Shown here piece by piece: positions 15,109 through 46,545 of a stretch of DNA of 47,895 nt. The stretch's first letter is position 1, and every line of letters starts with the position of its first letter. Under the pieces are notes generated by a model. The model was not told the origin of the DNA and ran no database searches. It saw only the letters and a list, made by a program, of their open reading frames with translations. The stretch spans positions 1 through 47,895 of IMG/VR virus record IMGVR_UViG_3300005295_000034; one strand, given 5' to 3'. A program made the position numbers and the translations under genes. This DNA is from a virus.

Positions 15109-15140
15109 GTGTAAGTAACTATCGCCGATTGATGCTTACG
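15109..15140. repeat. Dispersed palindromic element, copy A
   Basis: A near-palindrome of the family GTAAGC-AACTATCG-CGATAG-ATGCTTAC: here GTAAGTAACTATCG is followed by CCGATTGATGCTTAC. It lies in the gap between the 203-residue gene and the endolysin, 21 bases before the endolysin start. Copies also occur at 20871, 29128 and 46509. Confidence 0.75.
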
Positions 15141-15747
15141 ATTTTCCCTCTGCCATTTTCTGCAGCCGCTCAGCGAAAGGGTTGCCCGCCGACGCCGGCT
15201 GGGCGACATAGGGCGGGTCGACAGGGTCGGGCTTGCCGGCGTTGGGGTCGGTGGCGGGCAGGTTCTGGAGCGCCGCGAGGTCAGGATTGCCAGCGTCCTG
15301 CTTGTCGCCATCATTGTCGAGGTCGTCAGGCTCGTTGCCGGGTTCCGCAATCTTCTTGGCCTGGGTGGACGATTTGAGTCTCGCGGGGACGCTGTCGACC
15401 ATTGTCACACCCTGGCGGGACTGGGAGGTCGATTGCAGCACTGCCCCGCCCTTGCTCGCCTCGTGCGCGCGCTTGGCGATGTCCATCAGCTCCATGCCGT
15501 AGGTCGGAAGCGCCTTCCCAGCCTTGATTGCCTGGAGGCGAATCATGCCGGTCTTTTTCGTCCAGTCGATAAACTGCCCGAGGGTCGCATGGGGATTCGC
15601 GAGCGCGAAGTTCTCGATGGTGTCCTCGACGTTCTCACCGCGCTGCCAGCCGTACATCTTCGTGCCGCGCTTGAGGTCCGTGACGAACTGCTCACGGTTT
15701 TCATTCATGTGATAGGATACTTTGTCACCAATTCTGAAAACTGCCAT
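15136..15747 (-). CDS. Hypothetical protein, possible virion or assembly protein
   Basis: A 203-residue protein. The first 120 residues form a mixed alpha/beta domain (FRIGDKVSYHMNENREQFV), and the rest is an acidic, Pro/Ala-rich, probably disordered tail (EPDDLDNDGDKQDAG, VDPPYVAQPASA). The ATG at 15747 has AGGAG nine bases upstream; a GTG two codons earlier is less suited. It lies between a small membrane protein and the endolysin. I do not recognise the family. Confidence 0.6.
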   Translation of the reverse strand: MAVFRIGDKVSYHMNENREQFVTDLKRGTKMYGWQRGENVEDTIENFALANPHATLGQFIDWTKKTGMIRLQAIKAGKALPTYGMELMDIAKRAHEASKGGAVLQSTSQSRQGVTMVDSVPARLKSSTQAKKIAEPGNEPDDLDNDGDKQDAGNPDLAALQNLPATDPNAGKPDPVDPPYVAQPASAGNPFAERLQKMAEGKS

Positions 15748-15759
15748 TTTCACTGTCTC

Positions 15760-16077
15760 CTAGAGGGTTGGGCATTTGAGGGTGCGATTCTCGATACAGA
15801 ACTTGTACAAGTCTGCCTTGAACGCGACGTTATCAGGTATGGCTGGCCCCTTCGCAAGACTGACGCTAAATGCTTGCATCTGTTGGCCGAGCGCGATGAC
15901 CTGCGCTTCCAGCCGGGTAACTTGCTGGGTGAGCTGGGAGTTTGTCAGCTCGGTGCTTGTCGATCTTGTCCCGAACCAATACGCCGCACTGATTGCGGTC
16001 AGGAGGATTCCTGACAGTACTGTGATTGGCACAAAGCCCTTGCTTAAATCCGTCACCGCTTGCTCCAGTTGGGTCAT
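15760..16077 (-). CDS. Single-pass membrane protein with coiled coil
   Basis: A 105-residue protein with one membrane segment at about residues 17-36 (PITVLSGILLTAISAAYWFG), then a periplasmic-type coiled coil (LTQQVTRLEAQVIALGQQMQ) and two cysteines near the end (KFCIEN, LKCPTL). The ATG overlaps the upstream stop (ATGA). The topology resembles i-spanins, and it lies close to the endolysin, so a lysis role is possible, but a better spanin pair is encoded at 12646-13100. Confidence 0.6.
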   Translation of the reverse strand: MTQLEQAVTDLSKGFVPITVLSGILLTAISAAYWFGTRSTSTELTNSQLTQQVTRLEAQVIALGQQMQAFSVSLAKGPAIPDNVAFKADLYKFCIENRTLKCPTL

Positions 16078-16493
16078 TTAGTTTTTCCCTTCGAGGTAAA
16101 CGGTAGGACGTAAAAGCCAGGTGCGAGAGCTTTTAAGTCGGCGATGTTGCGAAGATAGATAGGTTGTTCGGGAAATGCTACCGGGCCACAATTCTTGGCG
16201 ATGATGACCCGAGAGACTGGCGTGCGGATGCAGGAGCGATAGCGCTCAAGTTGGTCGTACGCGTCGATTGATAAGGTGTTCTTGATTTCGATTAAACAAG
16301 ACCAGGCAAAAGCATCGCCGAATATTCGTGCGTCGACAATGCCAGTACGTAGACGGTGTTGAAGCGACACTCTATTCCCGAAGGCTTCGACTAACGCGTC
16401 ACTCACCTTCTTCTCGTACCGGAGCCCCTGTCTTATTGCTGCTGCTGAGTAGGCCCCGCTGGGCAAACGGGTTGACGGGTACATGTGCGACAT
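16074..16493 (-). CDS. Small PD-(D/E)XK nuclease-like protein
   Basis: A 139-residue protein with the core of the PD-(D/E)XK fold: E27 in a helix (GLRYEKKVSDAL), D54 (GIVDARIFG), then the E69-x-K71 strand (CLIEIKN), followed by a helix with LERYRSCI. This spacing fits Holliday-junction-resolvase or VRR-like nucleases. It is the second gene of the late operon, directly after the TerS-like gene, which it overlaps by 95 bases; the start has only a modest GGAA site. A packaging-linked or DNA-processing role is inferred. Confidence 0.62.
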   Translation of the reverse strand: MSHMYPSTRLPSGAYSAAAIRQGLRYEKKVSDALVEAFGNRVSLQHRLRTGIVDARIFGDAFAWSCLIEIKNTLSIDAYDQLERYRSCIRTPVSRVIIAKNCGPVAFPEQPIYLRNIADLKALAPGFYVLPFTSKGKTK

Positions 16494-17158: not shown

Positions 17159-17187
17159 AGTATGGCACAACCCTTTCGCTTTGTCAA
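17159..17187 (-). promoter_or_regulatory. Late sigma70-type promoter
   Basis: On the minus strand a perfect -35 box TTGACA (17187-17182) is followed after 17 bases by CATACT (17164-17159), four of six matches to TATAAT. It points at the TerS-like gene, leaving a leader of about 160 bases that contains the inverted repeat. Confidence 0.65.
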
Positions 17188-17508
17188 GGAAAAAATTTCC
17201 GTCTGGCCCCTGCGTTGGGGTCCCCTTTCTCGCCGCCTCGACGGCAAATCGCCTGCGGCGCTCTTGTCTGGCCCCACCTCTGGGGTCCCCATTTGCGCCC
17301 CTTTCGCACCCCTTGCTGCGCGCTGCCTTCGGCAGCTTGCTAATTGTAAGTGTTTTCAATTTTCCGGTCGGACGGGCTCGGTGACTTGAGATTTCAGGGG
17401 GGCGGGGCGGCAGGGTGGCATGGGGGGACCGGGCAGGGCAGGGCATGGTATGGGCGAGATGAGGTTTCCGAGCGGAAGTCTAGGAGATGCAACCTATGAC
17501 CTCCCCCC

Positions 17509-20870: not shown

Positions 20871-20904
20871 GTGTAAGCAACTATCGCCAGTATTTGCTTA
20901 CACT
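20871..20904. repeat. Dispersed palindromic element, copy B
   Basis: GTGTAAGCAACTATCG and its mirror TTTGCTTACACT flank a short centre, giving a nearly perfect inverted repeat (AGTGTAAGCAA against TTTGCTTACACT). It lies between two plus-strand genes, 38 bases before the start at 20943. Confidence 0.78.
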
Positions 20905-25530: not shown

Positions 25531-25938
25531 ATGTTCACACCCGACCTATCCCACGCACTATTCGCCAGCGCTGGCACCATCATCGGCGTCATCGTCGGCG
25601 CGAAGGGCGCAGTGTGGGCACTCAAGCCAAAAATCGATGACCTCCGCCGCAAGCGCAATGAGTTGAGCGCAAACCTCAACCTCGCGGAGGTGAAATGCTC
25701 CGAGCTCGGACAATACAAGTCCGACATCAACGGCATCATCGCGACGCTTGCACGCAGGGCGGGGCTTATTAAAGAAGTCAAACTCCACGCAAGTGCCATT
25801 ACAGAAAACTCTTACGACAACACCACTGGCGTTTGGACCCACAAGCACATCAAGCGCCGACCCCACCCACAGGACCCGCTCGCTGCGCAAGCCAACAACG
25901 CTGCAGCCTACGGCCCTAACGGCGAGGCACCATTCTGA
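25531..25938 (+). CDS. Membrane-anchored coiled-coil protein
   Basis: A 135-residue protein. One N-terminal membrane segment (ASAGTIIGVIVGAKGAVWAL) is followed by a coiled coil (KIDDLRRKRNELSANLNLAE) and a polar C-terminus. It could anchor something to the inner face of the membrane. It follows two other small membrane proteins. The family is not recognised. Confidence 0.58.
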   Translation: MFTPDLSHALFASAGTIIGVIVGAKGAVWALKPKIDDLRRKRNELSANLNLAEVKCSELGQYKSDINGIIATLARRAGLIKEVKLHASAITENSYDNTTGVWTHKHIKRRPHPQDPLAAQANNAAAYGPNGEAPF

Positions 25939-26138
25939 TGCCAAGACCTCGCGGCTCCGCGCAGGAGGTCATATCAATCCGCATCCCAGCGGACTTGAAG
26001 CAAGCGGTTGACGAGAAGCTTAAGGACCCTCTCCGCAACCGCAATAAGCATGGGAGTGTGAAGCAGTTAATCACCTCCCTCCTCTACTCCTGGCTTGACG
26101 ACAAGAACCCAAGCTACAACAGATTGGACGATCTATGA
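25938..26138 (+). CDS. Ribbon-helix-helix protein with LDDL tail
   Basis: A 66-residue protein. VISIRIPADLKQAVDEKL (about residues 11-28) followed by a second helix (SVKQLITSLLYSWL) matches the beta-strand and two helices of RHH (CopG/Arc-type) DNA-binding proteins. It is a candidate transcription regulator and might bind the dispersed palindromes. It ends in KNPSYNRLDDL, a tail shared with two other early proteins. The stop of the gene overlaps the next start (ATGA). Confidence 0.65.
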   Translation: MPRPRGSAQEVISIRIPADLKQAVDEKLKDPLRNRNKHGSVKQLITSLLYSWLDDKNPSYNRLDDL

Positions 26139-27629: not shown

Positions 27630-28134
27630 AGACTTCCACCGCGCAAGGACTCTCGTCCCCATTGTCGATCCTCCCTTGCGTCGTGACCCTGTCATGCTCA
27701 GCCTACTCGGCATCGCGGCCAGCTCCATGCTACTCGCAGGAACCCTGTTCGCATTTAACCCTATCGAGGAGGACACCATCATCCCTCCTCTTCCAACCTA
27801 CAACACGCTCTACTGGGGAGCAATCTGGAATGACGACACACCTCCCGAAGATCACGAAGAATTTATACAAACCGACCGGCAGGCCGGCAATGGGCCAGCC
27901 TCCGAAGAGCAGCGTCCCCCTCTGTCAAGCGAAGATACTGAAGGACAACTACGGCAGGATGAAACAATGCGGGACTGGCGGGACGTATACGGTGGATGGC
28001 ATTCCATTATGCGGGTACCACGCTGGTCGTCTCGCGCTGGACGCGCTGGTCGCCCATTCCGAGGCCACTGCGACAAACGGGACAGGAGAAACTGCCGACG
28101 GACAAACAACGGAGGCATCACTTATCGAGGCTGA
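27622..28134 (+). CDS. Membrane protein; C-terminal half overlaps another gene
   Basis: Up to 170 residues. The N-terminal 75 residues look real: a basic lead, a membrane segment (MLSLLGIAASSMLLAGTLFAF, residues about 25-45) and a Pro/Tyr-rich stretch. From residue 70 onward the same DNA encodes the next zinc-type protein in another frame, and this frame turns Arg-rich and erratic. Either the overlap is genuine or the true gene ends early through an unseen event. Confidence applies to the N-terminal part. Confidence 0.45.
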   Translation: MFEDFHRARTLVPIVDPPLRRDPVMLSLLGIAASSMLLAGTLFAFNPIEEDTIIPPLPTYNTLYWGAIWNDDTPPEDHEEFIQTDRQAGNGPASEEQRPPLSSEDTEGQLRQDETMRDWRDVYGGWHSIMRVPRWSSRAGRAGRPFRGHCDKRDRRNCRRTNNGGITYRG

Positions 28135-28153
28135 ATATGCGGAAAAAGTATGA
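27830..28153 (+). CDS. Small zinc-binding-type protein
   Basis: About 107 residues from ATG 27830; ATG 27890 is an alternative start (87 residues). The pattern LCQAKILKDNYGRMKQCG, then PLCGYHA (C-x..C-x..C-x2-H) looks like a zinc knuckle found in small phage proteins. The tail is acidic and Thr/Ala-rich. It lies entirely inside the 3' part of the preceding frame for most of its length. Confidence 0.55.
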   Translation: MTTHLPKITKNLYKPTGRPAMGQPPKSSVPLCQAKILKDNYGRMKQCGTGGTYTVDGIPLCGYHAGRLALDALVAHSEATATNGTGETADGQTTEASLIEAEYAEKV

Positions 28154-29122: not shown

Positions 29123-29127
29123 GAGAG

Positions 29128-29158
29128 CTGTAAGCAACTATCGGCGATAGTCACATAC
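29128..29158. repeat. Dispersed palindromic element, copy C
   Basis: CTGTAAGCA is followed by the perfect 15-base palindrome ACTATCGGCGATAGT and then CACATACG. It lies between ThyX and the Sak4-like gene, 20 bases before the latter's start. Confidence 0.8.
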
Positions 29159-29178
29159 GAAACCAAATGTGAGTCCCC

Positions 29179-32291: not shown

Positions 32292-34035
32292 CCTTTGGAC
32301 TGGAACACGAGGCGATAAAAAGGCGCCGATTATGGTCGTCGGCGAAGCTTGGGGCGAGAACGAACGCGCTTCCGGCAAGCCGTTCGTCGGCGCGAGTGGG
32401 CAAGAACTAACCCGAATGCTACGTGAGGGAGGGATAAATCCAAATGACTGCTTCTACACAAACGTCATCAACACAAAGCCAAACGGAAACGACTTCACCA
32501 ACTTCCTCATTCCAAACGACAAAGGGAAGAAGGGACAATACGCAGTACGCCCGACCGTCGAGCTTATTCAGGGGTTGCAAAAGCTCGACGCACAGATTGA
32601 CGCGGTTGCGCCTCGTCTTATCCTTGCTTGCGGGAACTGGCCCTTGTGGCACCTGACCGGCAAGGCAAACATCAAAACCGAGCGGGGCTATCGTGTCGCC
32701 ACGGGGATTGACTCCTGGCGGGGGTCACAGCTTTACCTAAATAAATCCTCCGGCCGGAATGCGCACGGTATTCCAGTCCTCCCCACCTACCACCCTGCCG
32801 GCGTGCTGCGCATGTGGCCGTGGAGGAGAATTACTGTCCAAGACTACCGCCGGGCTGCAGCCTTCATGCGGAACGAAATCACTTGGCATGACGCCAAGGC
32901 TGCGCTCCGCGCCAATATCGTACATCCCAAACCGCACCAACTTCTCGAAGTCCTCAAACGTTGGGCAAGCGACCCCTCTCGCCCGATCACCTGCGACATC
33001 GAGACAAAGGGAAACCTTATCCACATTATGGGGTTATCTCGTGACGGGTTGCTCAATACTGCCGTGCCGTTTTTCCACATCACCGCGGAGGGGACTCGTC
33101 CTGCATACAACCCCTATGAATTCCAGCAAATTTACCGCATGCTTTACGAGTTCTTCCTCACCCCTGGCCTCAAGTTCATCGGCCAGAATTTCAACTTCGA
33201 CCTCCAATACATCGCGCGGTATTTCCACAAGACAATCGACTGCGTCCATGACTGCATGGTTGTTCAGCACGCCATGTTCCCAACCATGAGGAAGAGCCTG
33301 GACTTTATGTCCTCCATGTATTGCGAGCACCATGTATATTGGAAGGATGACCTGAAAGAATCCACCGACACATTCGACACAAACCAAGCCTGTCTGTACA
33401 ACTGCGAAGACCTGTGGCGCACGAAGGAGGTGTACGACAATCAACAAATTGTAATGGACCAACTCGGCAAACGCCCGCAGGTCGAGCGTCGTATGCGCCT
33501 ATTCCCCATTACTAATTCCATGATGAACGACGGCGTGCTAATCGATCGCCGCCTTCGCGATAGCATGCGCATCAAGCTCATGGATACCGCGCACAAGATT
33601 GAACTTTGGCTTTACGACATCATGCCACCCGCCGTCATCGAACGCGCGGGACTGACAAAACTCCAGGCGAAAACTGCGTGGTACAACTCCCCAACACAGC
33701 TTGCAACTATCCTCTTCGACACACTCAAACTTCGCACAACATACTACGGTCGTTCAACCGACAAGGAGGCCCTCGTTGAGCTCAGCGAATACTACCCGCA
33801 CTATTCCGGGCTTTTCTCTGCAATCCTACTGCTCCGATCTGTTAATGTCGTCGCAGGGAATATCCTCTCCGCAAAGATGGAGAATGATAACAGACTTCGA
33901 ACTCTATATGATCTCGCGAAGGCAATCACTTTCCGACTTTCTTCCGGGAAGAACGTATGGGGAGGTGGCGCGAACCTCCAAAACATAATGCGTGATCGGG
34001 AAGATATGGACCTCTTCGAACAGGATTTGATATGA
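32224..34035 (+). CDS. UDG domain + 3'-5' exonuclease + N-terminal part of family A DNA polymerase
   Basis: A 603-residue fusion. Residues about 34-210 form a family 4-like uracil-DNA glycosylase: GEAWGE at 40-45, KPFVGASG at 52-59, and HPAGVLR at 190-196; the iron-sulphur cysteines of family 4 enzymes are not seen. Residues 250-405 are a DnaQ-type exonuclease with D258/E260, QNFNFD at 321-326 and YNCED at 392-396. The C-terminus carries the polymerase segment RLSS at 571-574 and NLQN at 584-587, then stops. Motif A onward is encoded separately at 34787. The start has GGAG eight bases upstream. Confidence 0.85.
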   Translation: MRTDSGIETPFLAPLSREEIIGDLWTGTRGDKKAPIMVVGEAWGENERASGKPFVGASGQELTRMLREGGINPNDCFYTNVINTKPNGNDFTNFLIPNDKGKKGQYAVRPTVELIQGLQKLDAQIDAVAPRLILACGNWPLWHLTGKANIKTERGYRVATGIDSWRGSQLYLNKSSGRNAHGIPVLPTYHPAGVLRMWPWRRITVQDYRRAAAFMRNEITWHDAKAALRANIVHPKPHQLLEVLKRWASDPSRPITCDIETKGNLIHIMGLSRDGLLNTAVPFFHITAEGTRPAYNPYEFQQIYRMLYEFFLTPGLKFIGQNFNFDLQYIARYFHKTIDCVHDCMVVQHAMFPTMRKSLDFMSSMYCEHHVYWKDDLKESTDTFDTNQACLYNCEDLWRTKEVYDNQQIVMDQLGKRPQVERRMRLFPITNSMMNDGVLIDRRLRDSMRIKLMDTAHKIELWLYDIMPPAVIERAGLTKLQAKTAWYNSPTQLATILFDTLKLRTTYYGRSTDKEALVELSEYYPHYSGLFSAILLLRSVNVVAGNILSAKMENDNRLRTLYDLAKAITFRLSSGKNVWGGGANLQNIMRDREDMDLFEQDLI

Positions 34036-34202
34036 AACCTTCTCTAAAAGCCTTGTCTAGGCTTGAACTAGCGCAGGAAGCAGCGTATGGCACTGGCGAC
34101 AAACAATTCGCCAGCGATCTTCGTGCCTTGTTGGATTTCTACTACACTCAAACAAATACGCCAAGACAACCTGCCGCAACCGACGATGATATGGAGGAAT
34201 AA
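34032..34202 (+). CDS. 56-residue protein inside the split polymerase locus
   Basis: Reads MKPSLKALSRLELAQEAAYG onward, helical, ending in an acidic tip (ATDDDMEE). Its ATG overlaps the stop of the polymerase N-part (ATGA), and its stop is one base before the HD-protein start, where its last codons supply the GGAGGA ribosome-binding site. It is unrecognised. It might help the two polymerase parts associate, but this is only a guess. Confidence 0.55.
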   Translation: MKPSLKALSRLELAQEAAYGTGDKQFASDLRALLDFYYTQTNTPRQPAATDDDMEE

Positions 34203-34203
34203 A

Positions 34204-34800
34204 ATGAGCAACCCTCGCTACTGGATGCAGACATTCACCGGCCGTCCATTCCGCTTCGACGCGCCGCTCAATCTTGAGATCGAGATTAAGGATATCGCCC
34301 GTCCGCTATCCCGCGTCTGCCGTTTCGCTGGGCATACAAACTCCTTTCTCTCCGTCGCCGAACACTCAATGGCAGTGCATTGGCTCATACACAAATACAA
34401 CCCCGATAATTGCCTCCTCCAAATGCACGCGTTGATGCATGACGCGCATGAGGCTTTCTTCGGGGACATTATCTCCCCGCTGAAACGCTTCCTTGCAGAG
34501 GAGTATTATATCGACATCAATGAGATGGAAGCTAGCGCACAAGTCAATATCCTCGCAGCGTTCGGCATCCAGCTTTTGGATAGCATCCACGACGCTGATG
34601 CTATTGCACAAGCTGACCTCGCCTGTACGAAATGCGAGCGGGACCTGTACATGGCATCCCCTCTCCAATGGGACCTTGACCATGTCACCTATCCCGACGA
34701 CCTCCCCAAAGTCTACCCTCGTCTATCCTCTAACGAAGCCTTCGGGCTTTTCATGGACACGTTCAACGAATTGAAGGACAAGCTCAATGCTCAAGGTTGA
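34204..34800 (+). CDS. HD-domain 5'-deoxynucleotidase (YfbR-like)
   Basis: A 198-residue protein, the usual length for YfbR. The HD metal site is complete: H44 (FAGHTNSF), H79-D80 (ALMHDAHEAFFGDI) and D138 (AIAQADLAC). The 35-residue gap from H44 to H79 equals that in E. coli YfbR. Such enzymes remove phosphate from dNMPs; related phage proteins (DatZ) hydrolyse dATP. It lies between the two halves of the polymerase gene, with GGAGGA six bases before its ATG and a 14-base overlap with the second half. Substrate is not decided by sequence. Confidence 0.8.
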   Translation: MSNPRYWMQTFTGRPFRFDAPLNLEIEIKDIARPLSRVCRFAGHTNSFLSVAEHSMAVHWLIHKYNPDNCLLQMHALMHDAHEAFFGDIISPLKRFLAEEYYIDINEMEASAQVNILAAFGIQLLDSIHDADAIAQADLACTKCERDLYMASPLQWDLDHVTYPDDLPKVYPRLSSNEAFGLFMDTFNELKDKLNAQG

Positions 34801-35665
34801 ATGGCCGCCAATTCGCGACACATTCCTCCCCGACCCTGGCTGGGTTCTATTCGATATGGACCTCGCCGGGGCTGACGCGCAGGTCGTTGCATGGGAGGCA
34901 AACGACGAAGACCTCAAAGCCGCCTTCCGCGCCGGGCTGAAAATCCATGTCCACAATGGCATTGCCATGTACGGCCGGGACGTCATGTATGCCACCGACC
35001 CGAAGGGCAAGTCCGAGCCAGTCTACACCCGTGTGAAGCGCGGAGTCCACCTGACCAACTACGGTGGTATGGTCTCCACCCTCGCTTCCAAATGTGCCAT
35101 GTCAATCGGCGAAGCGACGAAGTTCCAATACGACTGGTTCTCCCTCCACCCTGGCATTGTCGACTGGCATGAGCGAACTGAGTTCGAAATCCAAACGAAA
35201 GGGGAGACCTCAAACAAATTTGGCTATTCCGTCCCGTGGAACGACCGGCCATCCAAGCGCATCTGGCGACAAGCTCTAGCCTGGACGCCGCAATCCACAA
35301 TCGCACACGTAACCGAGGAGGCAATGCTACGTCTATGGGCTGAGCGTGAGACCAACCCACACTTCCGCAAATACCTGAAGATTGTGATGAACGTCCACGA
35401 CTCTCTCATAATCTCAGTCAAACGTGAATACATCCCAGCAGTCATGCCTCGAGTCTTCGAGCTTTTGCACAGCATTGTCATTCCGTACGACGACCCTCTC
35501 ACTATCCCTTGGGGAGTGAAGCGCGGAGCGACCTCGTGGGGCAAAGCGAAAGAGACAACCTGGGAAGAAATCCTAAATGAGTCAACTGAAATTGGTAGAA
35601 ACACAGAAGGAGTCGCCGAAGCGAAAGTTCCCGGACTGGATCGAAGCTTACATCCAGTACACTGA
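34787..35665 (+). CDS. C-terminal part of family A DNA polymerase
   Basis: A 292-residue protein that begins just before motif A. Motif A is GWVLFDMDLAGADAQ with D25 matching the catalytic Asp705 of E. coli Pol I, and an Asp (D30) where Pol I has Glu710. The O-helix region is RVKRGVHLTNYGG (82-94), with Y92 at the Phe762 position. Motif C is NVHDSLI (202-208) with D205. With the polymerase part at 32224-34035 this makes a complete palm and fingers. Both parts would need to associate. The end overlaps the next gene by 89 bases. Confidence 0.85.
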   Translation: MLKVEWPPIRDTFLPDPGWVLFDMDLAGADAQVVAWEANDEDLKAAFRAGLKIHVHNGIAMYGRDVMYATDPKGKSEPVYTRVKRGVHLTNYGGMVSTLASKCAMSIGEATKFQYDWFSLHPGIVDWHERTEFEIQTKGETSNKFGYSVPWNDRPSKRIWRQALAWTPQSTIAHVTEEAMLRLWAERETNPHFRKYLKIVMNVHDSLIISVKREYIPAVMPRVFELLHSIVIPYDDPLTIPWGVKRGATSWGKAKETTWEEILNESTEIGRNTEGVAEAKVPGLDRSLHPVH

Positions 35666-36872
35666 CGATACAGAAGCGCCTATTGAGTTCCATATGTGGA
35701 CTGCGCTAGTTACCCTCTCCGGCGCAGTGCAGCGTAAGGTGTGGGTCGACCTGGCCCACTTCCAATGGGTGGCAAATCTGTACGTCATGCTTGTCGGCGA
35801 GCCAGGGATTGTCACAAAGTCAACTTCCATCCGCATTGGACAGAATCTCCTCCGCGGGGTGAAGGGTTTTGTGAAAGGCCCTGACTCTGTCACCTGGCAG
35901 GCACTAATCGACGCCTTCGGCGAGGCGTCACAATCGTTCAAGTTCGAGGGAGGGGACATGGTACAGTCCCCTCTCACACTCTTCATCGCAGAGCTTGGGA
36001 ACTTTCTCGACCCAGACAACCGCGAAGCAATGGACCTTCTAACTGATATGTGGGATGGACAGGCAACGACATTCACCCGGCGGACACGCGGCAGTGGCGC
36101 GATGGAAATCATCAACCCGTGGCTGAACTTCATCGGTTGCACTACACCCACCTGGGTCCAGAACAACTTCTCTGCGGATCTTGTCGGCGGCGGGTTTGCG
36201 TCCCGTCTGATCGTCATTTACGGAGACAAAAAGCGAAAGCTCATTGCCTACCCCGGCTTGTCACAAGGTGGATTGAAGACGCACATGGAGGACGATCTCA
36301 TCCACGACCTGCGTCATATCGCCCGTCTGATCGGCCGGATGCAAATCTCCCGCGAGCCAGAGACTGTCAGACATGTTGGTCTTGATGGGAAGATGGCGGA
36401 CTTCCACTACCCCGGCGGAGCGCTGCAATGGGGGGAAGAGTGGTATATGAGGATTCAAAACGAACGTGGAAAGGAAGCAATATCCCGCCGGGCCAGCGGG
36501 TATTACGCGCGGAAGCAAGCGCACCTGCACAAAATCGCGATGCTACTATCCATCGCATATAAAGATGACTTAATCATAACTGCGGCGGACTTGGTCAACG
36601 CTCACAATATCCTACTCATGGTGGAGAAAAACATCATGAAGGTGTTGTCGAATGTTACTAACCGACAGGCCGCAGCTCGCAACGCAATGGAGATATTGAC
36701 ACTACTGCAATCGAACCAGAACTTGACTGAGGCTGACATCTTCGGGCATCTGTGGACCTTCATGTCGAAGAAAGACTTTGACGTTGCACTTGAAAGTCTC
36801 CAAGCCGCGAAGATGGTGTTCACGCAAAACGTCGGCGGGAAGCCGTACTTGAGAGCAAAGGTTAGGACATGA
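35577..36872 (+). CDS. DUF3987-like primase/helicase ATPase
   Basis: A 431-residue protein with the typical lead of DUF3987 proteins (FHMWTALVTLSGAVQRKVWV) and a degenerate P-loop VGEPGIVTKST at 73-83; the usual GK pair is replaced by VTK, a known variant type in this group. An acidic Walker-B-like strand LFIAELGNFLD follows at about residue 134. The C-terminal part is helical with a winged-helix-like segment. It probably acts as the replicative helicase or a primase partner. It directly follows the polymerase. Confidence 0.7.
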   Translation: MSQLKLVETQKESPKRKFPDWIEAYIQYTDDTEAPIEFHMWTALVTLSGAVQRKVWVDLAHFQWVANLYVMLVGEPGIVTKSTSIRIGQNLLRGVKGFVKGPDSVTWQALIDAFGEASQSFKFEGGDMVQSPLTLFIAELGNFLDPDNREAMDLLTDMWDGQATTFTRRTRGSGAMEIINPWLNFIGCTTPTWVQNNFSADLVGGGFASRLIVIYGDKKRKLIAYPGLSQGGLKTHMEDDLIHDLRHIARLIGRMQISREPETVRHVGLDGKMADFHYPGGALQWGEEWYMRIQNERGKEAISRRASGYYARKQAHLHKIAMLLSIAYKDDLIITAADLVNAHNILLMVEKNIMKVLSNVTNRQAAARNAMEILTLLQSNQNLTEADIFGHLWTFMSKKDFDVALESLQAAKMVFTQNVGGKPYLRAKVRT

Positions 36873-37309
36873 AGAAAGATTTCCACACACATGTTGAAGT
36901 TACGCATTACAGTGAGGAATGGGACAACGAAACTGAAAAATATTTGACCGTTCTCCAGCGCCGACTGGTGCCCAAGAAAGGCGCAATACTCTCAGAAAGC
37001 CGTGATAACGACGGCACAAAGTACGTCATTCTGGAGTATTGCTATTTCGGCGATGGTCCATCCTTCCGTATCGAAGGCACCTACGAGGAACTGCGCGAGC
37101 TATTTACCGGCAAACCTACCGTACCCGACGTTGGTCAATTACCGCCGGGCTGGGAGGGACCCCTTGAGCCGGACTGGGAGAAGGCGTTCCCTGGAATAAG
37201 TCCTCAAGAAGAGCGTCATCAAGAGGGGCACTCGGTTGAGCGGGCACTCGCCGACGAAGCCCACTTGGCGGCGGAGCTTCCGGGAAGAGTTCCTGAACCT
37301 CGCGGCTGA
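36869..37309 (+). CDS. Last early protein, 146 residues, unknown
   Basis: Starts on the stop of the previous gene (ATGA). The first 85 residues form a beta-rich domain (HTHVEVTHYSEEWDNETE, KYVILEYCYFGDGPSF). From about residue 83 the gene overlaps the 3' end of the giant minus-strand gene by 194 bases, and there the sequence becomes Pro/Glu/Gly-rich and probably disordered. The family is not recognised. Confidence 0.55.
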   Translation: MKKDFHTHVEVTHYSEEWDNETEKYLTVLQRRLVPKKGAILSESRDNDGTKYVILEYCYFGDGPSFRIEGTYEELRELFTGKPTVPDVGQLPPGWEGPLEPDWEKAFPGISPQEERHQEGHSVERALADEAHLAAELPGRVPEPRG

Positions 37310-40300
37310 CGCCACGTAAATTTTTGGCGGTAGGAGTCCGACTCTCCTTCGCCTTCCGTTCCCTTTCCCGCGTCTTCAAACTTTTCTGGAGGGTATCTTG
37401 CGTTATTTTCAAACCACTATCTGGCACTTCCTGATTAAATTCCTTGATGGCACTGCGGGCGTCTTGCTTCCCTTCGACGTCATTGAGGCGTGCAGCACGA
37501 CCGTAAGCATTGAGAAGAAGCTTTCTCTGCCCGGTCCAATACATCTGGACTTCTCGTTGCGCTTGGATAGCGTCCCACTGCCGCGTAAGTTGAGTGGGCT
37601 GAAAGCCGAGGCCAACGGCAAGAGCGTCCATTTGGTCACTGATGTCGTTGGGATCGAAATGCGTGACTGTGGCTCCTCTTGTGTCTCGTTCTCTCTTTTC
37701 TGCAAGGTAGCGGCTGGAACGCGATACGTCCTTGAGCGCCCTGGGCATGGCACGCTCCCAGCGCTTTGGGTCATCACTAGGCAAGGCGGAGTCTACAGCA
37801 CTGTTATAGACGGCAAGCGGAACGCCAAGAAGCGGCCCGGCAATTTCACGAGTCACGTCTCCGAGCATCTCCGTGAAAGAGGATCCCTTTGGGTCCATAA
37901 GCGCGGCAAGGCCTGGGACGAGCTTGCCCATCGACAGGCTACCGGACAAATCGGCGCTGCCGGAGGGAAGCCCAACACCCTGGAGCGCTGCTGGTATCCC
38001 GAAGCCAGCACGGGAGGCGCCGTTGAGGAGGATGTCAGCAACGTGCCCATCTCCGACGAAGTCTTTGATCATTCTCCGAACAAATAGCTGCGGGTTGATG
38101 TCAAATCCCAGCAGCTTGCCGAGCGCCTTCGCCAGGGCCTCGGCATCCTCCGCGCCGGGAAGTCCCATAATCCCGGCGACAGCGAATAGCATCAGCATGA
38201 AGCGGACTTGCGTTCCCCTATTTGCATTAAACATGAAGAACATCATGTTTTGCAGGTAGGTTTTGAACATGAAGAGCACGCCTCTCCCACCCTGCATGAT
38301 CTTCGGCCGTGCCCAGCGGGAGTATTCGAACTGCGTGTCACGCACCGTCTGCGTCGCGAAGATATACGCCGCAGTTTGCCGGTCGCCCCAGCCACGGTCC
38401 TGCTTCAGCCGTCCAACTTCCACCTTGTTCTTGACCAGCGCTTCCTGGACGTAGGGGTTATCTGGATTTGCAATTGCAAGGTCATACGCAGTCCGGAAGG
38501 TGACGCTACGGTTGAAGCGCTCGGCGGCTGCGAAGGGATATGTCCCCCATTGCGCAACTGTCCTCATCCCGCGGGCGAAGTTTCCGTCCGCAATAGTCCT
38601 CGACAGCACGCTTCCCTGGCTAACCGCCGCTAGCTCCTGGGCGAAGCCGTCGTCGATCACGCGAGATGCATGCGCCTCATCCAGTGCCTCCTGCTTCGGG
38701 CCATTGGGGTCGATTGTGCTCTTCCCCATCACCCAATTCTTCATATCCTTAATGTTGTAGTTCATCGTCTGCAGCGCAGCGGAGGAAATCCCGCGCTTGG
38801 TTCCCGGGAACTTCGACGCAAGGTACGGGTATGTCACCATCGGCACCTGCGATAGATTCACAAACGCCGCTGCAGGGGCGAAGGCGAAATACCACATAAA
38901 TCCCAGCGCGCGCACGGACGCCCATTCACCGGCGGGGTTCATCTCCGCGTCGAAATGGCGTTGCATATAGTCAGCGATCCTTGAACGACTGTCCCGCGAA
39001 ATCGGCGAGGCCGTCCGACGCACATCCTTGATGCTTTCCTGCAACCTGTGGGCGTACTCCATCCGGGCCACAAACCTTGCGCTTCTTGCGAAATATGTGG
39101 CATACGCGCGCATACCGTCACTACTATACCCCGGCGTGTTCGTGCGCTCAGAGAGGTTGTGGCGGAAAGAATTGACCGGGATGGAGTCGAAAGTCAGCCC
39201 TTCCAGGGCTTCAAGATCCTTCTTCTGTTGCTCCGTCAGCTGCTCGGCGTCAAGTCCCAGCGACTTTTTGACATTCTCCAATGCAAAGCGTGGTAGTCCC
39301 TGAAACTGCTGCATCGTTGGGGACATTTCATCCGACACAATGGAAGCTTCTTGAGGGACCTTGTAATCTTTCTGCACCTTCACAATCGTAGCGTCGCGGG
39401 CTTTCGCCGTGTCGAAGGCAGCGAAGTATTTGACCTGTCTGGTCTTCGCATCTCGAACAGTTAGAATATACTTGCCGAAACGCATGTGAGGGAAATAAGG
39501 CTGCGCACGCATTGCGGCAATATCGCTGGAAATCTCCGTGATTTTCGCCTGCAAAAGTGCGTCATCCGTTATCGTCTCCTGTGCATTCCGAATGCCAGTG
39601 ATTTCCACCTGGGTCAGGAATGAAAGGAAGTCCGTGCGGATATTCTTATAAACCTCAAACGCTTCGCGAGAGAGCTTGTGCTTGCGGACAATAGCAATCA
39701 ATTCCTGGTCTGTCGGCCAGCGGGGTTTTTGCGTACCGTCCTTAAGTTTCTTCGGATCGAGATAGACCATCTGATCGAGGTCAAACATCAAGTTCCACAA
39801 TGCCTGCTGCATAGGCTTAGGAAGAGCCTGCGCTTGGCGCAAACGGTTGTCTGCCATGGTCGCCCAGGACAGTGCATCGTCCTCCATCGCGCGGGTGGCG
39901 GTGACGTAGCGGCGGAGCGGCTCGATGTGTGGGTTCAGGTCCGCCAGTTGGTGAATGCCCAGCAGCCATTCGAGAATGGTATTGTGTCGATCGGCGCTGG
40001 CGAGCAACCCCTTGAGTTTTTGTTTGTCCCCGGCATCCATGTCCGGCACGAGGTCGAGCAACTTCCTCACCTGCAGGGTACTGGCCCGTTGAGGCGTTGC
40101 AACGACATACTCCATATTCCAGCCATTCAGCGCAGATTGATTATCCGCGATGGACTGCAACGCAGACTTCCTAGTCGTCTCGCTGAGGAATGGCTCCTCC
40201 GTCATAAGCGAGTCTAACCCGCGTAACTCCATCCGCTTGAGCCAGTCGAGCACTTCCTTCGCTGGCTTGCCTTTCATGCGGTCTGCGTCGAAAGGCATTC

Positions 40301-43300
40301 CCACAAGATCAGCAACCTTCTTCAGCATCTGCTTGATCATGGAAGCAGACCGCGCGAAGAACTTCTGCATGAATCCTAGTTGCGAGCCGGGGTCGACCAT
40401 CGCGCGGGAGATATTTTGTACGATCCATTCTTCAAAGTTATACAGATCTTTTTTTCGCCCTCTTTCGCCAATAGCACGCATAAGGATGGGGTGAGCGAAA
40501 ACTCTTGCCATTGCCGCTTCTCGAGAGAGGCTAGCAGCAGCGTGGGCTTCGCGGGTGTAGGCATTGTAGAGCGCATCCTTTTCAGATTGCGTTAGATTTC
40601 CGTACTCATATTTGACAATTATCTGCCCGAGAACGCGAGTGAAGTCGGTGTAGAATTGCGCCAGTGCAACAGGGTCGGTGAACCCCTTCTGCGGATCGGT
40701 GCCGAGTTGGACAGCAATCTTCCCAGCTTTAGACAATATCGGCTTCGGCTCCGGCGGGCGCGGCGGGTTTTCGACAGTCGACTTCCACGCACGAGCTTCC
40801 GCGGTGTCGGTATCACCTACTCTCGCCGCGCTTTCACCAAACTCCTGCTGGAGAGCGTTGAACAGCTCATCATACTTGCCAGTATGCGTGAGCCTAAATG
40901 CAGTCTGCACCCCGCGAGTCTCGCGGATCGAGCGGAAGTGCGTTGCGCCAGGATACTGCGCCTTGAACTGCTCGGTGGTGAGTCCAAGTTTCTTCAAATT
41001 CGACGGAATCGCAGGCTCAATCGAAATGGTGTCGCCTTCAGTCTGTCCCTCTCTCGGGCGGAGGACAAACATATTCTTGCGGTTAGAGTCCTTTGTGTAA
41101 AGACCCTTCCCACCTTCGGTATTCTTTGCGTATTTCCAAGGATCGATTTGAATAATACTGCGTGATTGAGGCTTCCCACCGGGGGTCAACGGCCGGTCAT
41201 CCTCAATGTATTTCATCGACGCTTCGCCGAGCGATCCCGGCGCGACAACCTCGACGAAGAAGTCGGTTTTCAACCCTAGCGACCGAGCCATATTGCGCAG
41301 GAAGATGAGCATTTTGGAACGCGTGCCAGTCTGCTGGTATGGCACAGCGCTTTCTTTCGTCGCAGGCTCCAGCTTCCCGGTGATGAAGTCCTGCAGGAAG
41401 GTGTTATGCAATTGCGACTGGAACAGTATTTCTGTCGCTAAAGCATCAAACCCCACGAACTTAGCAACTCGCGGGTCACGACTCCTCTTCGCGCGCTGCT
41501 TAATCAGCCTGCGCGTTCCAGCGTCAACGGAGATCTCCGGCCCGGCGTAGTCACGGACCTTATCGACCAGCTCACTCTCACGAACCTGCCGGAGAACAGC
41601 ATACTCCTGCGTATTGGGGGTAACGTCAAGTCGAAGCCCTTGATCGACGAGCTTCATGAACCGCTCGACGGTATCCGCCTTCTGTTTGTAGAATCTAATC
41701 CCCTGTTGCATTGAAGATAGGACATTCACCAACTCCTGCAGCAACTCCTTAGGGTTCGCTACTCCTTCCGTGAATCGAATTCCGCGCGCTTTCGCCGAGT
41801 TGAGGTCCAAGCTTCTCGCGATTTGATGATTCGCCAGTACCTGCCGAGCAAGATCTCGCGTTGGGAATGATGTAATGTCATCAGGAGAAATGTTCTCCAG
41901 GTCAATCGCTTTTCCCCCTGGCCGTGTGCGACTTTTCGGGGCCCCCGACGCCATGACATAGAACTGTCCTCCGCCTGGTCGAGTACGTGTCTCCAGCAAG
42001 TTTGCACGAGATACCTGTGGATCGACTGTTGCCTGCGCGAGAAGAAGCTTCTCTGCTTTAGCAGGGTCGCGCAGCATAATTTGCCCGTCGGTATATGGCT
42101 CAACTCGCGCGCCTTCATTCACCGCCTCGCGATAGGCGGCCTGGGCAACTTCAAATAGTCTTTCCCGTCTACGCATATTCGGCGTTGCATACGCCTGTCC
42201 GACGAAACGAATTGCGCTCGCGAGTTTCCCACTCGCGCTCGACATCATCTCCGGATTTGTGAAGTCGATACGTGGGTCGTCAAGGCTAGACGGCAGGTCC
42301 TCTACCACCGCGGTAATATCCCCGCGCGTGATTTTGGACGGGTCTAGCCGCACAAATCCACTTCCTTGATAATAGTCGTTGTCATTGTTTGCCTGATCTT
42401 GCGATCCAAAGAGTGTCTCACGTCCGGGAATGACTGCGCCGTAAAGACCCCGAGATCGTAGATCGACTTCTCCCAAAATCTGGTCCAACTGTGCCCCAGT
42501 GGCAACCCCGGCTGTAGCGTCGAGACCATTGCCGGCGGTTCGGACGATGTGCTCAGGTCCAGTTGTTGGCAGCTCTTCTGGCGATCCTCCGAAGACGATT
42601 GGAACTTCACCCACGGAGTCCCGAATATCTTTGTCGAGGAGCACAGTCTGTGCGCGTTCGCTGGTAAGAGACGAAAGTATGCCACCGCCAACACCTCCTG
42701 CAATCATCGCGTTGAGCCGGCGAGACCACGCCTCCGGCGAGAGTTGTGAGAATTTCTCGTCGAAGAAGCTCCGCGCAGTCATGTCGATTTCTTCTTGCGC
42801 GAGTTCAGTCAAACCCTCGGTGGCGATGCCAGCGGCGGCTTGGCCGAGGCGTCCACCGCCACGATTGGCGAGAGTTGTAAGTATCTGGCCGAACATGTCA
42901 TTCCCCTGCCCGATTGTCAGGCCATACTGACGGGCGAGGATTAGAGGGAAGAGGGACTCGAGCGCGCCCTTGGCAGTACCGGCGGCGATGGAAGTTATCG
43001 GGTAGACTTCCTTCGTGCCCTCGTACAACTCGCGCGCAGTTGCGCCGGTCTCAATCGCAGCGCCGGTTGCGAAAGCGCCAGCGAAGGCGGGAGCGGTGGA
43101 TTTGATGAGACTTTGCGTCGCTGCTGGCACAGCTGCACGGGTGAGAACCCGCTGGAGAAGACTTCCCGCGCCAGCGCCAGACATGATGGACAGGACGAAA
43201 GGTACTGCCTCGCCCGTCACGCCAGCGACATACCTCGCCCAAGACATGGGGTTGAGTGTAAGGTCTTCAACTTGCGCGACACCACGCTTAGCGCCCCCTT

Positions 43301-43673
43301 CGGCGATTTGTCGCGACCATTCGACGTAGCTTTCCGCAAGGCTTTCGTCGAATGGATATGCAACAAGACCCGCCAAGGCGTGCGGGGTCGCGGCGATCTG
43401 GCGAACACCAGACTGCAAGCCAGCGCCGAATTCGCCGAAGGCTGTCTCTGCTTTGGCGTCGCCCCACAAAGTATTCGACTCACTCTGTTGCGGCGGGGTT
43501 TTCGGCATTGCAACGTTAGAGGACGGTTGCGGAGCCGGGCCGAACAGGGAGTCGTAAAGATCTGTGGATTGTACCCCTGTTTGGGAGGAAACGGCGGGTG
43601 AGGCCGTGTCCACTCCAAACAGATCATCGATGACGGAATTACTTGGGTTTTGCGGCTGCTGGGGTGTTGGCAT
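37116..43673 (-). CDS. Giant ejection/internal virion protein (PLxRFG-type)
   Basis: The product has 2185 residues from ATG 43673 (a TTG 11 codons earlier is possible). The N-terminus is Pro/Gln-rich, followed by Ala/Gly-rich hydrophobic helices (about residues 125-330). Near residue 1395 the motif YFPHMRFGKY matches the PLxRFG signature of very large phage proteins, with His for Leu. Around residue 1524, NTPGYSSDGMRAYATYFA is another family mark. Hydrophobic segments near 1825 (FKTYLQNMMFFMFNANRG) could insert in the host membrane. Such proteins are packaged and ejected with DNA, like T7 gp16. No lytic or protease domain is certain. Confidence 0.78.
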   Translation of the reverse strand: MPTPQQPQNPSNSVIDDLFGVDTASPAVSSQTGVQSTDLYDSLFGPAPQPSSNVAMPKTPPQQSESNTLWGDAKAETAFGEFGAGLQSGVRQIAATPHALAGLVAYPFDESLAESYVEWSRQIAEGGAKRGVAQVEDLTLNPMSWARYVAGVTGEAVPFVLSIMSGAGAGSLLQRVLTRAAVPAATQSLIKSTAPAFAGAFATGAAIETGATARELYEGTKEVYPITSIAAGTAKGALESLFPLILARQYGLTIGQGNDMFGQILTTLANRGGGRLGQAAAGIATEGLTELAQEEIDMTARSFFDEKFSQLSPEAWSRRLNAMIAGGVGGGILSSLTSERAQTVLLDKDIRDSVGEVPIVFGGSPEELPTTGPEHIVRTAGNGLDATAGVATGAQLDQILGEVDLRSRGLYGAVIPGRETLFGSQDQANNDNDYYQGSGFVRLDPSKITRGDITAVVEDLPSSLDDPRIDFTNPEMMSSASGKLASAIRFVGQAYATPNMRRRERLFEVAQAAYREAVNEGARVEPYTDGQIMLRDPAKAEKLLLAQATVDPQVSRANLLETRTRPGGGQFYVMASGAPKSRTRPGGKAIDLENISPDDITSFPTRDLARQVLANHQIARSLDLNSAKARGIRFTEGVANPKELLQELVNVLSSMQQGIRFYKQKADTVERFMKLVDQGLRLDVTPNTQEYAVLRQVRESELVDKVRDYAGPEISVDAGTRRLIKQRAKRSRDPRVAKFVGFDALATEILFQSQLHNTFLQDFITGKLEPATKESAVPYQQTGTRSKMLIFLRNMARSLGLKTDFFVEVVAPGSLGEASMKYIEDDRPLTPGGKPQSRSIIQIDPWKYAKNTEGGKGLYTKDSNRKNMFVLRPREGQTEGDTISIEPAIPSNLKKLGLTTEQFKAQYPGATHFRSIRETRGVQTAFRLTHTGKYDELFNALQQEFGESAARVGDTDTAEARAWKSTVENPPRPPEPKPILSKAGKIAVQLGTDPQKGFTDPVALAQFYTDFTRVLGQIIVKYEYGNLTQSEKDALYNAYTREAHAAASLSREAAMARVFAHPILMRAIGERGRKKDLYNFEEWIVQNISRAMVDPGSQLGFMQKFFARSASMIKQMLKKVADLVGMPFDADRMKGKPAKEVLDWLKRMELRGLDSLMTEEPFLSETTRKSALQSIADNQSALNGWNMEYVVATPQRASTLQVRKLLDLVPDMDAGDKQKLKGLLASADRHNTILEWLLGIHQLADLNPHIEPLRRYVTATRAMEDDALSWATMADNRLRQAQALPKPMQQALWNLMFDLDQMVYLDPKKLKDGTQKPRWPTDQELIAIVRKHKLSREAFEVYKNIRTDFLSFLTQVEITGIRNAQETITDDALLQAKITEISSDIAAMRAQPYFPHMRFGKYILTVRDAKTRQVKYFAAFDTAKARDATIVKVQKDYKVPQEASIVSDEMSPTMQQFQGLPRFALENVKKSLGLDAEQLTEQQKKDLEALEGLTFDSIPVNSFRHNLSERTNTPGYSSDGMRAYATYFARSARFVARMEYAHRLQESIKDVRRTASPISRDSRSRIADYMQRHFDAEMNPAGEWASVRALGFMWYFAFAPAAAFVNLSQVPMVTYPYLASKFPGTKRGISSAALQTMNYNIKDMKNWVMGKSTIDPNGPKQEALDEAHASRVIDDGFAQELAAVSQGSVLSRTIADGNFARGMRTVAQWGTYPFAAAERFNRSVTFRTAYDLAIANPDNPYVQEALVKNKVEVGRLKQDRGWGDRQTAAYIFATQTVRDTQFEYSRWARPKIMQGGRGVLFMFKTYLQNMMFFMFNANRGTQVRFMLMLFAVAGIMGLPGAEDAEALAKALGKLLGFDINPQLFVRRMIKDFVGDGHVADILLNGASRAGFGIPAALQGVGLPSGSADLSGSLSMGKLVPGLAALMDPKGSSFTEMLGDVTREIAGPLLGVPLAVYNSAVDSALPSDDPKRWERAMPRALKDVSRSSRYLAEKRERDTRGATVTHFDPNDISDQMDALAVGLGFQPTQLTRQWDAIQAQREVQMYWTGQRKLLLNAYGRAARLNDVEGKQDARSAIKEFNQEVPDSGLKITQDTLQKSLKTRERERKAKESRTPTAKNLRGVSREVQELFPEAPPPSGLRRRVPAQPSAPLDDALLEDLFQGTPSPSPAQGVPPSPAVIDQRRVR

Positions 43674-45141: not shown

Positions 45142-46133
45142 TATGCAGCTCTCCGAGGATTACGAGACGGAACGGGAGGGGAAGACTTCCGCTTCGCCTT
45201 AGTGTTGTCCTTAGCCTCGACCTTTTTCGGCTTGTCCGCGTCGGATTTCTTCGTCGGTACAGGCGGCTCGAGGTCGGGGACAGAAGGAGTCTCTCCGCCG
45301 CCGTAGAAAGCTGGAGGCGCTGCGGGTACCATTGCGTAAGGCATGCGCTGGGATTCGTCGACGATTGCCTGTGCTGGATCGGCCCGCGCCATAGAGTGGA
45401 ACATGGGGTTCATCGAAGGCATCGGCGGTTCCATCTCCAGCGGCATGGGAGGCTTGGGCATGGTCGTTGTGTTTTGCGCTCCCGCCCCTCCGAAGGTCAC
45501 GCCACGGATGAGGTCGTTGATTGCGTTCCACATCCCATGCCAGCCTTGCTCCATGAAGTCAGGGGAGAATGGCGCCGGGACACCCTGGTCGAATTTCATC
45601 TGCGCGTTGGAAGGTGTAGCACGCGGTTGTGCGGAGGGGATTGTGGCCCCACCTGGAAGCATGTTCGGGTCCATGTTGTTTCCTGTGTTACCAAGGTTGA
45701 TGTTGACAGGAACTCCCCTGCCAGGTAGGTTTGGATTTGTCTTCGTCCCCAAGGCATCGGCTAGTTTCGCGACGGTTAGAAATGCCTTGTCCAGCATATC
45801 CACCGGCGGAGGCTCGGCAGTGTTCTTCTGCTTAGGGAGCGGCAGTGGCTCTGGTGTGAATGGCACCATGTTTCCACTGCCGTCATTCCTCAACGCCTGC
45901 GGCGGGGCGTCAGACATTGTCTCGCTCGGCCCTTCGGCTACAAGCCTACGCCGGCGAGGTAGCGGCTTGTCCTTTGTCGGCAAACCACCGAGGGGATCGA
46001 GATTATTTTCATTGAAATATTTCTCAATATCCGATGGCTGCGTCGCAAAGGGGTCAAGTTTGCGAACGTCGATAATTGGCGCGCTCCGCCGAGTACCCGC
46101 CTTAGGACTTGCTTGCGGTGCCTTTAGCGCCAT
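45141..46133 (-). CDS. Proline/methionine-rich probable virion protein
   Basis: A 330-residue protein with little secondary structure expected: many Pro, Met, Gly and Asn (PPMPLEMEPPMPSMNPMFH, LEPPVPTKKSDADKPKKVE), and only short helices. It sits in the run of ejection-type genes and is coupled to both neighbours by TAATG overlaps. Such disordered proteins often line or join internal virion cores. The family is not recognised. Confidence 0.6.
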   Translation of the reverse strand: MALKAPQASPKAGTRRSAPIIDVRKLDPFATQPSDIEKYFNENNLDPLGGLPTKDKPLPRRRRLVAEGPSETMSDAPPQALRNDGSGNMVPFTPEPLPLPKQKNTAEPPPVDMLDKAFLTVAKLADALGTKTNPNLPGRGVPVNINLGNTGNNMDPNMLPGGATIPSAQPRATPSNAQMKFDQGVPAPFSPDFMEQGWHGMWNAINDLIRGVTFGGAGAQNTTTMPKPPMPLEMEPPMPSMNPMFHSMARADPAQAIVDESQRMPYAMVPAAPPAFYGGGETPSVPDLEPPVPTKKSDADKPKKVEAKDNTKAKRKSSPPVPSRNPRRAA

Positions 46134-46495
46134 TACCTGCCACCTCCCGGAGCTTGAGAGAGAAGTGCGCCAAGGGTCGGCATGGACGGCGGGCGGTTCG
46201 CGCCAGTCGCCTGGAGGAATGGATTGACCAAATCCTCCATGCGCGACACATAGGGCAAGCCAGAGCCCGACACACCGCCGGAGAATTTCGGCGCTTCGGC
46301 CTGCGGAGCCTTGATGCCGGAAAGCATGTCGCCGATGGAACCGAGGCCACCACCACCCTGGGCGCCACCGGCCGGAGCCATTGGGTTGGCCATCGGCGCG
46401 CCACCCATGGGCATACTTCCTGCGGGGTTTAGCATATTCCCCATTCCAGGCTGTTGCTGTCCAGAGGCCATGAGCATTACTGATAGAGGATCCAT
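46133..46495 (-). CDS. Small Gly/Met/Pro-rich virion protein
   Basis: A 120-residue protein from ATG 46495 with CGGAG upstream; a longer frame starts inside palindrome copy D and is unlikely. It consists of Gly, Met, Pro and Ala repeats (PMGGAPMANPMAPAGGAQ) with a short helical middle. The neighbours suggest an internal virion component. The function is unknown. Confidence 0.58.
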   Translation of the reverse strand: MDPLSVMLMASGQQQPGMGNMLNPAGSMPMGGAPMANPMAPAGGAQGGGGLGSIGDMLSGIKAPQAEAPKFSGGVSGSGLPYVSRMEDLVNPFLQATGANRPPSMPTLGALLSQAPGGGR

Positions 46496-46508
46496 TTTTG
46501 GGACTCCG

Positions 46509-46545
46509 ATAAGTGTGTGCAACTATCGGCGATAGATGCTTACGT
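46509..46545. repeat. Dispersed palindromic element, copy D
   Basis: AACTATCGGCGATAG is flanked by GTGTGC and ATGCTTACG, matching copy C in the core and copy A at the right arm. It lies in a 58-base gap, 13 bases before the start of the 120-residue virion protein gene on the minus strand. Confidence 0.78.

Follow-up and report, generated by a model that had tools for sequence, protein, structure and literature searches.

Short DNA elements that recur ahead of genes across a phage genome are known from several systems. L5-type repressors bind promoter operators as well as short intergenic sites known as stoperators, halting both initiation and elongation in an orientation-dependent manner (PMC9283540). 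In the Cluster A mycobacteriophages, one repressor acts at many such sites in the genome and the site motif varies by lineage (PMC9283540, PMC6550527). Cluster K mycobacteriophages carry start-associated sequences (SAS) and extended start-associated sequences (ESAS), which are described as inverted repeats just before some translation starts, with a genome-specific half-site consensus (PMC3203893). Here we describe a family of four near-palindromes of 29 nucleotides (nt), hereafter dyads, in a single 47,895-base IMG/VR virus record (IMGVR_UViG_3300005295_000034, hereafter the window), together with dyad families of other sequence in its relatives. We predict, with a probability of roughly 70%, that all four elements serve as operators for a single DNA-binding protein, encoded by the phage and acting as a dimer or a dimer of dimers.

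The dyads share features with each of these systems. Like Cluster A stoperators, the sites in relatives of the window are spread over the genome, some on promoters and others in short gaps between genes, while the window itself has the intergenic kind only. However, stoperators as described in those sources are 13-bp asymmetric sites, oriented with transcription and numbering more than 20, whereas the dyads are symmetric, 28-29 bp long, unoriented and present in 3-9 copies; stoperators also belong to temperate mycobacteriophages, whereas the dyads occur in phages with no detectable integrase and a different candidate regulator. Like SAS/ESAS, the dyads lie ahead of a subset of genes and have a genome-specific sequence. 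The ESAS consist of 17-bp repeats around a spacer of variable length, mostly 4-13 bp, and go with a 13-bp asymmetric SAS close to the start codon, whereas dyad spacing is fixed; no companion asymmetric repeat was common to the four window places among the repeats listed, and none was evident flanking the 94 copies analyzed below. The arc and mnt operators annotated in the P22 record span 21-23 bp and lie at promoters; Arc and Mnt are ribbon-helix-helix (RHH) proteins. The proposed system would resemble this immI switch in pairing a small phage RHH repressor, a candidate here, with an operator over a promoter, but the P22 switch is local whereas the dyads are longer and scattered over the genome, and RHH binding to them is a prediction. 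In the T7 record, as with the dyads, short conserved elements stand ahead of genes across the genome. T7-type promoters are asymmetric and diverge between phages along with the polymerase. They need a single-subunit RNA polymerase, and none was found in 24 records by a search that detected it in the T7 and phiKMV controls; no tyrosine or serine integrase was found in 24 records either. Finally, the promoter early stem-loop (PeSL) cassettes of T4-type phages place an RNA stem-loop and an early promoter in intergenic gaps; their symmetry is at the RNA level, whereas that of the dyads appears to be at the DNA level.

A repeat finder run on the window ranked the dyads first, as a four-copy family, and their consensus is GTAAGCA-A-CTATCG-G-CGATAG-A-TGCTTAC. 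Arm symmetry holds at 11 of 14 positions in every copy, and the broken positions differ from copy to copy. Using a matrix of the four copies, a check that an earlier sequence-only reading of this DNA had proposed, we obtained 37.6-39.2 bits for the copies themselves. Because the next place in the window scored 15.6 bits, against a best of 16.9 in 20 shuffled windows, we conclude that the window holds exactly four copies and no fifth. The 29-nt consensus with at most three mismatches had two matches, compared with none in 100 shuffles. The sequence-only reading had located all four copies, with first bases that differ from ours by 2-6 nt, and the perfect 15-nt palindrome that it reported within copy C is indeed there (ACTATCGGCGATAGT). 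It was right that each copy lies a short way before a start codon, but the distances run from 19 to 41 nt rather than from 13 to 38 (Table 1). As for the neighboring genes, its endolysin agrees with our amidase/endolysin assignment and its Sak4-like gene is weakly borne out (PHROG match, 1.4e-4), whereas its "virion gene" after copy D follows from position; neither that gene nor the open reading frame (ORF) after copy B has a PHROG match. Copy A also provides the TAA that ends the gene lying upstream of it.

Table 1. Dyad copies and the candidate regulator gene in the window.
Feature	Coordinates	Strand	Sequence	Context or basis
Dyad copy A	15111..15139		GTAAGTAACTATCGCCGATTGATGCTTAC	23 nt before the ATG (15087, minus strand) of the amidase/endolysin gene, 14209-15087
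Dyad copy B	20873..20901		GTAAGCAACTATCGCCAGTATTTGCTTAC	41 nt before ATG 20943 of a Cys-rich early ORF, plus strand
Dyad copy C	29130..29158		GTAAGCAACTATCGGCGATAGTCACATAC	20 nt before the ATG of the Sak4-like gene, 29179-30078, plus strand
Dyad copy D	46515..46543		GTGTGCAACTATCGGCGATAGATGCTTAC	19 nt before ATG 46495 of a late-strand gene, 46133-46495, minus strand
RHH candidate regulator	25938..26138	+		66 amino acids; profile matches, family search, AlphaFold2 model

The capsid, terminase and primase of the window resemble those of Microcystis phage Mel-JY34 and Vibrio phage VS-ABTNL-3 and, more distantly, the podoviruses 119X and PaP2, and its layout is a rightward early/replication block flanked by leftward late genes. 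A capsid-alignment search yielded 80 related loci, whereas searches of viral contigs with single window proteins found no relatives. We assembled 42 genomes: the window, 31 contigs (of which G016, G021, G026, G028 and G030 were covered to base 39,900 only) and 10 GenBank phages. In every genome we looked for groups of 28-29-nt dyads that resemble one another. Families with at least three intergenic copies of one sequence were detected in 16 of the 42 genomes, compared with none of 210 dinucleotide-shuffled genomes and none of seven unrelated phages (T7, lambda, P22, phiKMV, BcepC6B, LUZ24 and HK97); one of the 16, VS-ABTNL-3, is a false match of AT-rich low complexity, leaving 15. At a threshold of at least two copies, the counts were 28/42 and 9/210 (shuffled). 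Further contigs, mostly fragments, had families of at least three in 5 of 18 cases, and no dyad family was found in 119X by the same search. Desulfofustis phage LS06 carries nine copies of TTGCTATGTCCCAAATTGGGACATAGCAA type and G025 eight of GGGACGGTGATTA type, and the families of G014 and G032 are of GGGCGGTTAAT and ACCGTAGTTTAAT type, respectively. An outer arm GGG(G)CG is common to many families but not all; the arms are AT-rich in the window, LS06, G031 and G016. Close relatives have a motif in common (G035 with G025, and G039 with G033). Separately, a lone 28-nt palindrome, perfect in sequence (TGTATCTGATACTGCAGTATCAGATACA), lies between genes of L176 (EBPR podovirus 3) at 9407-9434, with no family detected.

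The dyads of one genome resemble each other far more than those of other genomes: identity was 0.76 within a genome (median of 191 copy pairs), 0.50 at the same junction in different genomes (25 pairs) and 0.38 over all cross-genome pairs (4180 pairs). The junction before the primase contains an element in 6 of 32 cases, where the gap is 47-64 nt, and has a median gap of 0.5 nt in the others; the junction before the w4362 orthologue contains one in 5 of 32, with gaps of 55-71 nt compared with -1 elsewhere. Thus all copies in a genome change together, for which one trans-acting reader is the expected source. The related phages keep a scattered layout with comparable positions, while the sequence differs from phage to phage. 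This pattern suggests a control switch that spans the genome, changes fast and has so far gone uncharacterized.

The sequence of the window dyad itself appears nowhere else that we looked. Its 17-letter core had five chance matches only in viral contigs, a longer core had no match in bacterial genomes, and at up to three mismatches the whole dyad had one chance match in 58 related records (in the first 38; none in the other 20). The exact sequence is private to the window. The sequence-only reading had staked its elements on their recurrence at the same places in related phages; the window's sequence is absent from them, but dyads with sequences of their own are present in many. Searches found no phage DNA similar to window positions 28000-36900 and no RNA families or tRNAs. 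The open literature that we searched holds no account of these dyads; a transcription mapping of the related phage PaMx41 lay outside that search and could bear on them.

We considered whether a mobile miniature palindromic element, re-invading intergenic gaps in each lineage, could produce this distribution. Copies do turn over between phages, junctions with an element contrast with near-zero gaps elsewhere, and independent invasions could yield lineage-specific families. However, the same junctions hold different sequences of equal length and symmetry, copies are only about 76% identical and have no evident common flanks past a symmetric fringe, overlap with promoters would be unexpected, and no transposase-like partner was seen. 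The mobile repeat that the sequence-only reading had listed among its options is weakly disfavored by the recurrence of unrelated sequences at the same junctions, and we regard such an element as very unlikely.

To describe gene context, we used 94 copies from 22 genomes. This set omits two coding matches (G013 12716 and G025 42951) and the families of VS-ABTNL-3 (AT-rich), Kuura and G019 (terminal repeats), MW202554, MW202489, G005 and G034; the copies of G004, G010 and G024 were entered by hand. Genes were called with our own dicodon script. Some of its starts are wrongly placed, such as those following LS06 2244 and window copy B, so copies scored as coding are partly miscalls. Co-directional gaps hold 71 of the copies, with 11 in divergent gaps, 7 in convergent gaps and 5 at contig edges. 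For 60 of these 71 co-directional copies, a start was called no more than 300 nt away, at a median distance of 22 nt, and the upstream stop lies a median of 10 nt from the dyad (63 copies). We then counted strict sigma-70 promoters over dyads; copies in divergent gaps or at contig edges were entered once for each direction, and the seven convergent ones were omitted. Such promoters overlap 8 of 54 early placements, where 0.51 would be expected, but none of 49 late ones, where 0.39 would be. At each of these eight promoters, the dyad lies over the spacer or the -10 box or has its first base 6-12 nt past the start of the -10, and in no case is it upstream of the -35 box; from sequence, this is the geometry of a repressor. 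G035, which was outside the first set, has TTGACA boxes just ahead of three copies.

Could the dyads instead be activator sites for late or middle genes? The lack of recognizable promoters at late copies is often seen at activator-dependent promoters. However, the dyad end lies a median of 22 nt from the start codon, which leaves little room for a -10 box and a leader, and the absence of any dyad upstream of a -35 box among the strict promoters also argues against activation, which appears quite improbable.

Another possibility concerns genome maintenance. The window encodes a fusion of a ParB-like domain with a DNA methyltransferase (30680-32065), cluster members of which are conserved in 29 of 42 genomes, and LS06 has a ParB-like annotation. 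The dyads might therefore be partition or condensation sites, similar to parS or KorB operators, at which this fusion or some other protein of the phage would support both regulation and maintenance as an episome. In line with this idea, Shea, a distant PaP2-like relative in the genus of 119X, reportedly persists as an episome, with neither integration nor predicted lysogeny genes (PMC13348215). On the other hand, no DNA-binding helix-turn-helix is present among the PHROG matches of the fusion, single sites scattered ahead of genes are unlike a centromere cluster, and 119X lacks a dyad family. A partition role is thus highly doubtful.

Symmetric sequences between cistrons could also act as RNA, and we asked at which level the symmetry is kept. 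Among 927 pair cells, we counted 186 one-sided changes, 10 compensatory changes, 1 G-U double change and 4 unpaired double changes. Transitions in the transcript sense kept a G-U pair in 16 cases and broke the pair in 35; in late copies, 58 changes were one-sided and none compensatory. Over all copies the upstream and downstream arms changed equally (88 versus 91). Because the changes are one-sided, rarely compensatory and without G-U bias, the dyad appears to have been selected as DNA. Weak symmetry extends 5-8 nt past each dyad end, the first four positions matching in 48, 50, 38 and 45 of 94 copies (24 expected). Taken as sequences, the dyads look like unoriented DNA-binding sites.

RNA hairpins between cistrons, acting as RNase III-type processing sites or 5' message stabilizers, are consistent with the transcription of operon-internal copies shortly ahead of start codons in the window, and copy B, alone among the window copies, folds into a strong hairpin on both strands (z about -5). 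The sense strands of copies A, C and D, however, fold little better than shuffles (z -1.07, -0.58 and -1.77, respectively). RNase III requires no common sequence, yet the copies within a genome have one, and in relatives some copies lie over -10 boxes and others between convergent genes. With the pattern of one-sided changes added, the processing hairpins entertained by the sequence-only reading are not supported, and we hold RNA hairpins to be very improbable. Intrinsic, perhaps bidirectional, terminators are harder still to credit: GC-rich outer arms in many relatives, copies at convergent ends and between genes, and the outward extension of symmetry would suit them, but at least five T's in the next 8 nt follow only 2 of 94 copies, the arms are AT-rich in the window and three relatives, and terminators would neither require a common sequence nor cover a -10 box.

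If the dyads are operators, the genomes should encode their reader. The best candidate is a small RHH protein. Its family, mostly of 60-80 residues, is present in 26 of the 42 genomes, including the window (Table 1). Against the PDB, the RHH profile matched six chains at E values up to 10 (best 4e-4, others weak), and the best chain and at least four others are named or known as RHH proteins. The AlphaFold2 model (predicted local distance difference test score of 83) has an extended N terminus followed by two helices. Because Foldseek and VIA-align gave no match with the monomer model, the assignment stands on the sequence profile and the predicted helices. In G017, G010, G030 and G047, a dyad lies 21, 22, 30 and 22 nt, respectively, ahead of the RHH ATG, which is not the case in the window, and in G030 and G017 a sigma-70 promoter is also found at that dyad. 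Furthermore, a basic residue (K/R/H) in the middle of the presumed DNA-facing strand occurs in 10 of 10 genomes with GGG-type dyads and in 1 of 6 others (p 0.0014, for a residue chosen post hoc, in a table compiled by hand and with shared ancestry not removed). We set the strand register by presumed analogy with RHH structures; G035 and G047, fetched afterwards, fit the pattern. Searches of the window and LS06 proteins against PHROG, Pfam and NCBIfam named no regulator. The conserved RHH protein is the most likely regulator in our estimation, albeit tentatively so.

Several observations weigh against a common operator system, or against the RHH protein as its reader. None of the four window copies overlaps a recognizable sigma-70 promoter. 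Strict promoters also occur in 8 of 133 element-free early gaps of at least 50 nt, so that their enrichment at dyads over other early gaps (p 0.08) is merely suggestive. Seven of the 94 copies lie at convergent ends, with no gene start after them. A dyad adjoins the RHH gene in 4 of 19 genomes that have both, compared with 1.5 expected, which is marginal (P 0.053). The RHH proteins have a median identity of 0.24, and when their identity was compared with half-site similarity they ranked 8th of 20 proteins by Spearman correlation and 4th by Pearson. LS06, a complete genome with nine dyad copies, has no detectable RHH homologue, and RHH-bearing G003, G020, G026, G027 and G028 are among several without a dyad family at these thresholds. 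The proposal of the sequence-only reading that this protein is the regulator is therefore reasonable by profile matches, adjacency and strand residue, and is set back by the similarity rank and LS06. Its broader suggestion, that the elements are operators for one regulator, gains support from DNA-level symmetry, sigma-70 overlap in relatives and concerted, lineage-specific sequence.

These results led us to consider how such operators could work. One regulator would read every copy in a genome; as its specificity drifts, the copies would drift jointly, giving each lineage its own 28-29-bp site. In the early regions of relatives, the site would sit on a host sigma-70 promoter, and the bound protein would block initiation and shut down the early genes. 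Copies within operons or between convergent genes, which show no recognizable promoter and lie shortly ahead of the ribosome-binding site, would obstruct RNA polymerase during elongation, a roadblock role that has also been proposed for mycobacteriophage stoperators; alternatively, they may be seated on promoters that are not recognizable here. Roadblocking is favored for operon-internal copies because an activator-driven promoter would not fit into the short distance between the dyad and the start codon. We infer protein binding, repression and roadblocking from the dyads, their families, placement, symmetry and promoter overlap. The step with the best support is occupancy of the operators at early promoters, and that support comes from the relatives rather than from the window.

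At its widest, the model would have integrase-less podoviruses use genome-wide, symmetric, stoperator-like silencing by a tiny RHH protein, the specificity of which would diversify so quickly that even phages sharing 70% capsid identity have unrelated sites. Early promoters would be turned off and read-through blocked, which could hold an episome quiet (pseudolysogeny, reported for Shea) and define groups of superinfection immunity with no need for an integrase or a classical repressor. We think this scenario unlikely, if conceivable, and because 119X shows no dyad family, a link to the lifestyle of Shea is only an idea. Symmetric, genome-scattered operators in integrase-less phages would widen the stoperator concept beyond temperate mycobacteriophages. 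Since stoperator action is reported to be orientation-dependent and the dyads have no orientation, they would test whether plain steric block stops an elongating polymerase. The many site sequences at the same junctions would also form a natural series for studying joint specificity change in a regulator and its sites.

Other features of the window deserve mention. The DNA polymerase is apparently split, with phrog_17 positions 474-990 in 32188-34035 and 995-1241 in 34787-35665, and a deoxynucleoside monophosphate phosphatase-like gene (34087-34800) lies between the halves. A giant late protein of 2165 amino acids (37116-43613) contains the NCBIfam "tail-700" PLxRFG domain. The divergent early/late control region (17201-17299) carries an imperfect 34-nt direct repeat, 65 nt apart. 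A 43-bp repeat in two copies, 81% identical, is found on the minus strand at 8647-8689 and 17180-17222. At both places its end falls in the TTGACA box of a leftward sigma-70-like promoter: TTGACA-17-TATGAT near 8650, within a gene ahead of the capsid genes, and TTGACA-17-CATACT near 17187. Because the repeat ends in both TTGACA boxes, the late genes may share an upstream promoter element that has no relation to the dyads.

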